The notes under the pieces: generated by a model
Seen by the model: the letters and a program-made list of their open reading frames with translations, nothing else
Told to the model about the DNA's origin: nothing
Database searches by the model: none
Program-made: the position numbers and the translations under genes
Source: a virus
Direction: 5' to 3' (one strand)
DNA length: 27,234 nucleotides
Virus record (IMG/VR): IMGVR_UViG_3300042375_000181
Coordinates: 1-27,234 of that record
Shown: piece by piece, positions 8,932 to 25,981 of the stretch
Numbering within the stretch: position 1 is the first letter of the stretch
How the letters are laid out: every line of letters begins with the position of its first letter

Positions 8932-10371
8932 ATGGCAGAAAGTAATATCGTAGCGGGTCTGTTTGGCATGACTCCTGAAATGTATCAGGGGCAACAGTAC
9001 CAACAAGACTTAAAAAGAAGTTATGAATTAGCTCAACTCGATCCTGGTGCTGCGGCAAGAGCACAGTTGGGTGCAAGTGTTGGTCAACTTGGTCGTGGCT
9101 TTGCGGGTGCTTTGGGCATTGAAGACCCACAACTGAAGCTAATCAGTGCTAGAAACACTATTGCCCAACAGATAGACCAGACTAACCCTGAGTCAATCTT
9201 AAAAGGCGCACAGATGTTGGCACAAGCTGGTGACCAACAAGGTGCTATGGCATTGGCTCAATATGCTCGTCAAGCACAGAGTGAGATGGCTCAAACACAA
9301 CAGCGTTTGTCAGCAAGTAGAGCATCTGAGGCTCAAGCTACTCGTGAGCGAATGACCCCTCAACAACAGAATGCAATGGCGTATGCCTCAACTGTTGCTG
9401 AGCCAGGCACTCCACAGTTTAATTCTGTTTATCAAAGGACTTTACAAGACTTGATTAACAAGGAAAAACCTGATTTAACATCTACCGAGCAGAAAAATGC
9501 CAAAGCCTTGGCTTTAACTGCTGGCCCTGAAGGTTCAGCTCCTTACATTGAGAAATTTAATGCAGAGATGCTTCGCTTAACAACTAAGGCTGAAGGTCGC
9601 CCTGTGATTAAAGAAGTTGGTGTTGCTGCCAATACTCGTGAGCCTGTTTATACATATCAAGAAGGTAATAATCCTCCTCAACAAATCATCTATAGAAATG
9701 TTGATGGAAAACAACAGATGATTCCTTATACAGGTGGTGTTGACAGAACAACTGCCACATCAAAAACAGAGGTTAAATTGCCTGAAGGTGAATCAGAGTT
9801 TCTAAAAGAAATGGGCAAGTTAGACGCTAAAAAAGTTGCTGACGCTATGGTCACACGGGAAACGGCCTCCTCTACAATTAAGTCACTTAATAAATTAGCT
9901 ACATTGCCAGACAATGAGTTAATAACGGGGCAGTTTGCTACAGGTCGTGTTGGTATTGCTAACTTAATTCAAACGCTTGGTTTGGCTTCTGCCACAGATG
10001 CTAAAAGAGTAGCTGGAAGCCAAGAATATCAAAAGGTTGCGGGTGATGTTATCTTGCAAACACTTGGTGGCAAATTGGGTTCTGGCTTCTCCAATGCGGA
10101 TCGTGAGTTTATCCAAGGACTTATTCCACAGTTGGAAACAAATCCTGTGGCTCGTCGTCAACTTATCACGTTCATGCAACAAAAAAATCAAGATATTGTT
10201 GCAGAGGCAATTCGTACCGAAACTTATGCTCGCAAAAACAAAGGTTTATCAGGTTTCGAGCCTAAAATTCCAATGTCAGTTGAGCCTGTTAAACCAAGAC
10301 CTTATTCTGGCTTAACAGATGAACAACTCAATGCAAAAATTCGAGCCGCACAAGCTCAACAACCACGATAA
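8932..10371 (+). CDS. Internal virion / ejection protein candidate (479 aa)
   Basis: The start ATG follows AAGGA. The N-terminus, AGLFGMTPEMYQGQQYQQDL, leads into long Gln/Ala-rich helices (ILKGAQMLAQAGDQQGAMAL; QTQQRLSASRASEAQATRER), typical of phage proteins packed in the capsid and ejected with DNA. The C-terminal third contains FATGRVGIANLIQTLGL and GGKLGSGFSNADREFIQGL, which I also associate with this protein class. The middle is predicted helical and soluble. It is the second of three such genes. The assignment rests on composition, position and general resemblance. Confidence 0.55.
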   Translation: MAESNIVAGLFGMTPEMYQGQQYQQDLKRSYELAQLDPGAAARAQLGASVGQLGRGFAGALGIEDPQLKLISARNTIAQQIDQTNPESILKGAQMLAQAGDQQGAMALAQYARQAQSEMAQTQQRLSASRASEAQATRERMTPQQQNAMAYASTVAEPGTPQFNSVYQRTLQDLINKEKPDLTSTEQKNAKALALTAGPEGSAPYIEKFNAEMLRLTTKAEGRPVIKEVGVAANTREPVYTYQEGNNPPQQIIYRNVDGKQQMIPYTGGVDRTTATSKTEVKLPEGESEFLKEMGKLDAKKVADAMVTRETASSTIKSLNKLATLPDNELITGQFATGRVGIANLIQTLGLASATDAKRVAGSQEYQKVAGDVILQTLGGKLGSGFSNADREFIQGLIPQLETNPVARRQLITFMQQKNQDIVAEAIRTETYARKNKGLSGFEPKIPMSVEPVKPRPYSGLTDEQLNAKIRAAQAQQPR

Positions 10372-24257: not shown

Positions 24258-24288
24258 TGTGAACGCCTATAAAATGTTGAAAAAACCC

Positions 24289-24965: not shown

Positions 24966-25034
24966 GATGTAACGCCTATAAATTGCACTTTCCTATTGAA
25001 AGTAAAGTAATTTTATGGCCTAAAAAATAAAAAA

Positions 25035-25063
25035 CTATTAGGACAAACCCTAATAAAGTACAA
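25035..25063 (-). promoter_or_regulatory. Candidate leftward promoter with ATTAGG...CCTAAT operator
   Basis: On the minus strand TTGTAC (25063-25058) and TAATAG (25040-25035) are 17 nt apart, weak matches to -35 and -10. Between and overlapping them is a perfect palindrome ATTAGG-ACAAAC-CCTAAT (25037-25054). This is the only plausible start for the leftward cluster in the 129-nt A+T-rich gap. Palindrome-in-spacer layout resembles that at 17776-17797. Confidence 0.35.
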
Positions 25064-25094: not shown

Positions 25095-25334
25095 ATGGCC
25101 CGCCCGCCTAAGGTAGATACAGTGCAATTTAGACGCAAGCTGGATAACCCTAAGCTGCAAATATTGCTAAGTGCTGGGCAAGGCAATATTAGTCAGGGTT
25201 TTGAAAACCTATTGAGCCTTTACCATTACTTGCATGGAATCGGATATAGAACGGATAGCCCCTTAGAGACAATAGGGTTAGTAACTAACCTAGATCAAAG
25301 TAAAACAGATAGCCCGTATCAAGTGAACCAGTAG
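25095..25334 (+). CDS. Ribbon-helix-helix-like DNA-binding protein (79 aa)
   Basis: The 79-residue product is MARPPKVDTVQFRRKLDNPK, LQILLSAGQGNISQGFENLL and SLYHYLHGIGYR, with a flexible tail. A basic N-terminus, a strand (VQFRRKL), a helix, a turn (GQGNISQ) and a second helix fit the ribbon-helix-helix fold of small repressors. It stands alone in its own control region, divergent from the accessory cluster, so it is a candidate repressor of that cluster. An inverted repeat GGTTAGT-A-ACTAACC lies within its coding sequence at 25276-25290. Confidence 0.5.
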   Translation: MARPPKVDTVQFRRKLDNPKLQILLSAGQGNISQGFENLLSLYHYLHGIGYRTDSPLETIGLVTNLDQSKTDSPYQVNQ

Positions 25335-25418
25335 GGTAATAGACAAGGGATAGATAAGACTAGATCAATTCAAGTACATCAAAAAAGGTGCATCGCTCTT
25401 TCATGCTCTTACAAACGC

Positions 25419-25439
25419 AAATAAGAATCATTCGCATTT
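25419..25439. promoter_or_regulatory. Fur-box-like inverted repeat
   Basis: The left half AAATAAGAAT and right half ATTCGCATTT are separated by one C. The right half reversed is AAATGCGAAT, matching the left at 8 of 10 positions. The minus-strand reading (AAATGCGAATGATTCTTATT) closely resembles ferric uptake regulator boxes of Gram-negative bacteria. It overlaps the -35 position expected for the TATAAA at 25449. Confidence 0.45.
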
Positions 25440-25448
25440 AGACCACTG

Positions 25449-25454
25449 TATAAA
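25449..25454 (+). promoter_or_regulatory. TATAAA -10 candidate for the terminase unit
   Basis: TATAAA matches five of six -10 positions. The -35 place (25426-25431) falls inside the Fur-box-like dyad and is not a good sigma70 hexamer. Transcription would start about 25461, at the first TAGGG motif, and give a 155-nt leader before the small terminase gene. Confidence 0.35.
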
Positions 25455-25461
25455 TAATCAG

Positions 25462-25486
25462 TAGGGTAAACCCTGATAGGGTAAAC
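25462..25486. repeat. TAGGGTAAACCCT operator-like repeats
   Basis: TAGGG-TAAA-CCCT (25462-25474) is the palindrome seen at 17782 and 23810 with one base fewer in its centre. It is followed after 3 nt by a direct half copy, TAGGGTAAAC (25477-25486). Together these look like an operator with a second half site downstream of the possible transcription start. Confidence 0.42.
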
Positions 25487-25519: not shown

Positions 25520-25546
25520 GGGGGGGGAGGGGGTAGGTTGGGTTGG
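25520..25546 (+). other. G-rich tract, G-quadruplex candidate
   Basis: A run of eight G, an A, five G, then TA-GG-TT-GGG-TT-GG. At least four G-tracts of two or more lie within 27 nt, enough for a G-quadruplex in DNA or in the leader RNA. It lies 70 nt upstream of the small terminase gene, so it may also belong to a packaging site. The G8 run is prone to sequencing error in length. Confidence 0.5.
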
Positions 25547-25615
25547 TAGATATTTGTGTACCCGCTCCCATTCTGAAAAAGCTAAAATAAACTAATCCAT
25601 TCCAAGGAGGACAAA

Positions 25616-25981
25616 ATGGAAAAAAGAGGAAGAGGAAGACCAAAGGGAAGTGTCAAGATGACCATACAGAGGTTTGCTGACAATCCACCCCTTGTACTAC
25701 CTAAGACAGACCATCAACGTCTGAAGGAGCTTAAAGAGCTAATGATTAGGAGTGGTGGTAAGGATGTGGCTCAGAAGGTTATTGAGATAGCCCTTAATGA
25801 TGAACATCCTCACCAATTAGTAGCACTTAAGATGTGTTTGGATAGGACTCTACCTGTTTCTTTGTTTGAAAAGGATAAGTCTCAGAGAAGTGCCGTAACC
25901 ATCAATATCACTGGTTTGGGACAAGAGCCACTGGTAGTGGACACTGAACAACCTGAAGATGTAGAGGCTAAATATGGTTAA
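25616..25981 (+). CDS. terS: Small terminase subunit candidate (AT-hook-like)
   Basis: The product has 121 residues and AAGGAGG stands before the ATG. The N-terminus KRGRGRPKGSVK is an AT-hook-like, minor-groove-binding segment. A helical core follows (KTDHQRLKELKELMIRSGGK; VAQKVIEIALNDEHPHQLVA; ALKMCLDRTLPVSLFEKDKS), then a beta-rich end (AVTINITGL). The 'l.deHp.Q..AlKmcmDR.lP.s.Fek' pattern precedes large terminases in many podovirus-like genomes. It should recognise the packaging site and recruit the large subunit. Small terminases vary greatly, so the call leans on context. Confidence 0.75.
   Translation: MEKRGRGRPKGSVKMTIQRFADNPPLVLPKTDHQRLKELKELMIRSGGKDVAQKVIEIALNDEHPHQLVALKMCLDRTLPVSLFEKDKSQRSAVTINITGLGQEPLVVDTEQPEDVEAKYG

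Follow-up and report, generated by a model that had tools for sequence, protein, structure and literature searches.

A dyad with the appearance of a ferric uptake regulator (Fur) box lies ahead of the terminase genes in a viral record of 27,234 bp, which was analysed as a whole (the window) and terminates within the terminase large subunit gene. This raises the question of whether a site for a bacterial iron regulator is present in this phage DNA and, if so, what it would do there. An earlier note had placed the dyad in a promoter through which host iron status would gate the packaging genes, with a decoy for Fur as the alternative.

The dyad and its neighbours

The dyad is indeed present before the terminase genes (Table 1). 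AAATAAGAATCATTCGCATTT is a 10-1-10 inverted repeat whose arm positions are complementary in 8 of 10 cases; it has the Fur-box layout (7-1-7 / 9-1-9; TAAGAAT-C-ATTCGCA) and agrees at 10 of the 12 fixed positions of the 7-1-7 core. When the window was scored with a Fur matrix of 10 E. coli promoters, the dyad was the best match. Its score of 14.1 fell inside the range of the training sites (12.4–22.1) and was reached by 44 of 300 dinucleotide-shuffled windows. Thus, the single site alone cannot carry the Fur claim, and on its own the dyad is just moderately striking against chance; it rises above chance expectation because it is conserved in relatives.

Table 1. Features at the terminase end of the window (positions in the window)
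Feature	Position	Strand	Basis
Predicted Fur box, 21-bp dyad AAATAAGAATCATTCGCATTT	25419..25439	+	Layout, conservation, matrix recognition
Predicted LexA (SOS) box CTGTATAAATAATCAG, CTG-N10-CAG	25446..25461	+	Spacing, SOS-promoter recognition
AGGGTAAACCCT dyad, third element class	25463..25474	+	44/53 distinct relatives, among the matches listed
79-aa gene upstream of the cluster	25095..25334	+	Homologue in 49/49 distinct regions scored, among the matches listed
G-run and conserved stretch to GAAAAAG, putative genome end (cos)	25520..25581	+	Analogy with contig G014
121-aa gene at the place of terS, N-terminus GRPKG	25616..25981	+	
Terminase large subunit gene, truncated where the contig stops	26137..27234	+	

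Six bases past the dyad begins the CTG-N10-CAG element, a LexA partner that was overlooked in the earlier note. The TATAAA to which that note had assigned the role of a −10 element is found at 25449–25454, but it lies in the interior of the LexA-type box, and the −10 role could not be upheld. The CTGT-N8-ACAG form presumably points to a beta- or gammaproteobacterium as the host. A search for the host by TerL in species genomes gave one distant match, in a Flavobacteriales MAG; among annotated phages there was no TerL with at least 60% identity to that of the window, and the tail protein and endolysin were uninformative as host clues.

The 79-aa gene has no Pfam or PHROG family, and its product appears ribbon-helix-helix-like by eye only; a dyad similar to the third element, TTAGGACAAACCCTAA, precedes this gene near 25040. 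For the 121-aa gene in the terS position, no PHROG family and no Pfam family above the cut-off were found. We also observed AACGCCTAT at 24262–24270 and 24971–24979, directly ahead of leftward gene starts (0.09 expected), which is perhaps a shared translation or promoter signal.

Conservation in relatives and recognition of E. coli promoters

A TerL search gave at least 80 related contigs, or 81 loci with the window's own. The 59 loci with at least 800 bp upstream of terL were used, and the 22 shorter ones were left out. Conservation in relatives was one of the tests by which the earlier note would have had its reading refuted, and the dyad withstood it. The results showed that the dyad occurs with 0–3 mismatches in 33 of the 59 loci (window copy counted, among the matches listed); two further loci carry an inverted form with 5–6 mismatches, and the others have none better than 7. 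From 58 loci, 53 distinct 330-bp terS-upstream regions were derived. The Fur-box score was reached by 34 of these, with two or more boxes in 16 and none in 19 (among the matches listed), counts that are descriptive and not a test, as the matrix was trained on the same phages and the related mosaic sequences are not independent of each other. In the 34 regions the columns of the box are mostly 88–100% conserved and those of the flanks mostly about 30–60%, so that the dyad stands out as a conserved block with variable sequence on either side.

The LexA-type element is likewise recurrent: CTG-N10-CAG was present in 40 of the 53 regions, with 60 occurrences representing 33 distinct 16-mers; shuffles gave a mean of 2.5 and a maximum of 6, and none of the other spacings tested, 2 to 17, gave more than 14 occurrences (all among the matches listed). 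The third dyad is frequently multi-copy in the regions of relatives.

Two side observations were made in these loci. In relatives such as L004, L026, L054 and L062, other short repeats occupy or adjoin the place of the Fur box, namely TTATGCAAAAAACGCATAA, tandem copies of AACTTAACATAAC, and GTTATAAATCATAAC; the picture resembles a cassette-wise exchange of regulator sites. The 68218-bp contig G016, which contributes L075 and L081, carries two terL copies that are not alike, lie about 34 kb from each other and differ in their upstream clusters; it is two joined phage genomes, either natural or by assembly.

Matrices built solely from the phage elements were then applied to 12 stretches of the E. 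coli K-12 genome, 415 kb in total, with the promoter list and regions chosen from knowledge of the regulons and with 1,607 windows of 250 bp as the null set. The results showed that: (i) with the Fur-like matrix the AUC was 0.991 for the 10 Fur promoters but 0.50 for the 7 SOS promoters, (ii) the LexA-like matrix gave an AUC of 0.9995 on the SOS promoters and 0.40 on the Fur promoters, and (iii) none of 60 position-permuted matrices equalled the real ones, for Fur and LexA alike. The weakest of the ten Fur promoters was fiu (p 0.058), and the sulA region, though SOS, was also high with the Fur-like matrix. In the first 350 kb, the top two matches of the Fur-like matrix lay outside the promoter list, near tff and near dps. 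Thus, the phage matrices pick out Fur and SOS promoters, each specifically. Independence from the family-trained matrix is limited to this E. coli comparison, the scrambled palindrome and the LexA and DnaA neighbour tests below. Recognition of E. coli Fur promoters by a phage-built matrix bears out the Fur-box identity first proposed from the window, and we regard it as very probable that the dyad is a Fur box and the CTG-N10-CAG element a LexA box.

With proteobacterial Fur boxes (those of E. coli fecI, fhuA, exbB and others) the phage box shares the 7-1-7 inverted repeat and matrix recognition; in contrast to those, the phage box lies in phage DNA, with no iron gene beside it and no conserved promoter overlap.

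Occurrence in other phages and at genome ends

The 20-mer AATRAGAATCATTCGCATYT matched at least 119 IMG/VR stretches, compared with 4 for a scrambled palindrome of near-equal composition. The 113 new loci behind these matches formed 31 DNA-similarity groups, 29 of them without a member of the window family, and 20 of the 29 non-family representatives had two or more Fur boxes (among the matches listed). LexA boxes within 400 bp of Fur boxes numbered 7 in 30,354 bp, against 3 in 223,518 bp elsewhere (Fisher p 3e-5; the 29 non-family groups, among the matches listed). The DnaA box TTATCCACA occurred 13 times near Fur boxes (2.15 expected) and 5 times far from them, in 5 of the 29 groups, one of which has a tandem array; 30 permuted 9-mers averaged 0.47 near Fur boxes. 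Motifs of CRP, FNR, Cra, MetJ, ArgR, PurR, TyrR, NrdR, Zur, OxyR, PhoB and TrpR were not enriched near Fur boxes. The IHF pattern was (11 against 4.1 expected), perhaps just because intergenic DNA is AT-rich. At five loci (L084, L096, L110, L117 and L154) the Fur box is translated in frame as NENHSHL within the N-terminal portion of a terS-like protein; its distance to the conserved part of the protein differs among the five, suggesting that the DNA, not the peptide, is what is kept.

The position relative to terL was determined in 40 records, i.e. the 29 representatives and 11 added from linked groups, 28 of which had a TerL match. The box is 5' of terL in 27 of these 28 and within 14.2 kb in 26 (among the matches listed; one record was read as circular, and one TerL match is a fragment with stops). 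Counted by protein-similarity groups, it is 5' of terL in 13 of 14 (p 0.002).

In the window, a run GGGGGGGGAGGGGG is followed by the conserved stretch up to GAAAAAG. In the complete 34.9-kb relative G014 both ends of the contig join at a point about 45 bp ahead of terS, and a second contig begins 2 bp from this junction. By analogy, the stretch in the window may be a cos site. The Fur box of G014 is some 140 bp from the end, and the cluster of the window family is about 150 bp from the putative genome end. Contig ends as proof of a cos site were rejected, as one complete contig and one start 2 bp off are too few. If the contig ends are physical and packaging proceeds as in lambda, the cluster would be at the end that enters the cell first.

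T5 (AY543070) has an annotated injection stop signal at 9140–10149 (our locus L202). Strong Fur boxes with scores of 17.9–28.3 lie within it at about 9551–9711, together with a near-consensus LexA box, TACTGTATAAATATACAGTA, at 9409–9428 and a DnaA box; the strong Fur boxes and the LexA box are also found in the repeat copy of the signal. TGTGCAAATCCGAC repeats were observed beside the boxes in this signal. Taken over whole records, the terminal repeats hold 10 of the 11 Fur matches with at most two mismatches in T5 and 18 of 18 in My1; all 14 of DT57C form two sets separated by about 100 kb, which is what its terminal repeats would give. LexA matches with at most three mismatches are confined to the repeated terminal copies (T5, 2; My1, 4; DT57C, 2). 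The passage on the T5 signal in PMC13250531 describes it by repeats, palindromes and DnaA boxes, calls its mechanism poorly understood and does not name Fur or LexA. Like the cluster at the putative genome end of the window family, the T5 signal brings LexA and Fur boxes together in terminal non-coding DNA, with a DnaA box among them. T5 differs in that it is an unrelated phage with staged DNA entry and a multi-box array about 9.5 kb from the end.

What the cluster may do

The cluster could be an operator for a phage promoter leading into terS and terL, comparable to LexA control in GIL01 or in colicin promoters; Fur-Fe2+ and LexA would shut this promoter off until iron runs short or DNA is damaged. 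Such a role would suit the placing of the main box, mostly about 178–238 bp before terS in relatives, the Fur-to-CTG gap of 6 bp in 8 of 27, and the tandem LexA boxes, 2 bp apart, in some relatives. There is also a precedent of LexA control in GIL01, where host LexA-type dinBoxes, sometimes tandem, lie in non-coding phage DNA as they do here; according to the passages on this phage in PMC4551915, however, it is temperate and the boxes are in a mapped promoter, whereas in the window family they are paired with Fur boxes. In a crude consensus scan of the 34 relatives with a box, the best sigma70-like score was 7.96, compared with 7.69 in shuffles, and no −35/−10 pair, nor any −10 outside the box, was conserved. 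Box number and order vary among relatives, and integrase (PF00589) and the CI-like repressor domain HTH_3 (PF01381), as would be expected of a temperate-phage control region, were absent in 12 of 12 family records, several of them partial. T5-like phages, which are virulent, carry the same set in non-coding terminal-repeat DNA, and copies of the box lie in frame within genes. Thus, with no conserved promoter, no conserved −10 outside the box and the TATAAA inside the LexA-type box, the iron-gated terminase promoter proposed from the window is not supported. A promoter switch is disfavoured, and we consider the operator rather unlikely.

The decoy alternative would fit better than promoter gating of the packaging genes, because of the many copies, the arrays, the occurrence in unrelated phages, the in-frame copies in terS-like genes and the terminal-repeat arrays of T5-like phages. 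The most likely reading, to which we give a little less than an even chance, is a host-repressor docking cluster that captures Fur and LexA on phage DNA. The Fur box, accompanied by one to three LexA boxes, would form a conserved docking cluster at the putative genome end, in the stretch that separates the 79-aa gene from terS. Host Fur-Fe2+ and LexA would bind to it and would be captured at the first-entering end, in copy number rising during replication. The consequence would be either derepression of the iron-uptake and SOS genes of the host or a mark or shield on the end of the phage DNA; switching a terminase promoter would not be the purpose. Multicopy Fur boxes on laboratory plasmids titrate Fur (FURTA), which would be the way for a multicopy phage site to deplete it, although those are plasmids and not phage genomes. 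An E. coli cell contains Fur molecules in the thousands and LexA molecules at about a thousand; with hundreds of phage genomes of one to ten boxes each, arrays could titrate them, but single boxes only doubtfully. The capture reading is weakened by the one Fur box per genome in the window, few against thousands of Fur molecules, and also by the 19 of 53 relatives without a scoring Fur box (among the matches listed).

It is also conceivable, but unlikely, that the cluster is a DNA-entry element comparable to the T5 injection stop signal, with host Fur, LexA and DnaA on the incoming DNA acting as a roadblock or a ratchet. The strong Fur boxes and LexA box in that signal and its repeat copy would agree with this, as would its poorly understood mechanism, for which the passage in PMC13250531 names palindromes and DnaA boxes, and the location upstream of terL in 27 of 28 records (among the matches listed). 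However, the cluster of the window family, about 150 bp from the putative end, is too near for a pause after partial genome entry. If the cluster belonged to a replication origin, a place in which sites for DnaA, LexA and Fur gather, the excess of DnaA boxes around the Fur boxes of other phages would be explained. But this excess comes from 5 of 29 groups, with a tandem array in one of them, and the window's own cluster has no perfect DnaA box; an origin is highly improbable. The elements might instead be operators of a phage-encoded regulator that merely resemble Fur and LexA boxes, or RNA hairpins. Every one of the 49 scored regions has the 79-aa gene together with the cluster, for which reason Fur-box presence cannot be correlated with this gene, and the third dyad is commoner still. 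Against both variants stand the cross-recognition of E. coli promoters by both element classes and the same boxes in unrelated phages. As regards hairpins, the inner LexA positions 5/12 pair in 0 of 33, the Fur arms retain a mismatch at positions 6/16 in 21 of 24, and there was no Rfam match; an RNA element was rejected for the wrong pairing pattern and the missing Rfam match. Taken together, a phage regulator or hairpin is quite improbable.

The passage of PMC6024767 on host iron-uptake genes reports that PAK_P4 and NCTC12673 raise them and that PAK_P3 does not. We found one weak Fur match in PAK_P4, none in PAK_P3, and 7 in NCTC12673 against 15 for a reversed control pattern. Fur boxes as the cause of the induction by PAK_P4 and NCTC12673 were rejected, there being one weak match in the one and fewer than the control in the other.

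Mobile DNA that reads the iron or SOS state of the host, as the cluster may do, is found in the Fur-controlled stx1 promoter and in the LexA boxes of colicin promoters; unlike the cluster, these drive a cargo gene from a defined promoter. In the open-access literature, outside of which most subscription papers lie, nothing was found on Fur boxes in phage terminal DNA or on phage Fur-LexA clusters.

More broadly, and with more doubt than the capture reading itself, tailed phages that infect Proteobacteria, T5 as well as uncultured families, might in many cases carry at the first-entering end a docking cluster (Fur, LexA and in some DnaA) that captures these regulators, releasing the iron-uptake and SOS regulons and making the injection stop in T5. 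If Fur and LexA bind such clusters, this would provide a concrete molecular candidate for the unexplained T5 signal and a sequence-based predictor of phages that disturb host iron control. The clusters in unrelated phages, including T5, raise the idea that phages use or soak up host Fur and LexA, and if these proteins bind the clusters, phages would act on the iron and SOS control of their hosts via DNA alone.
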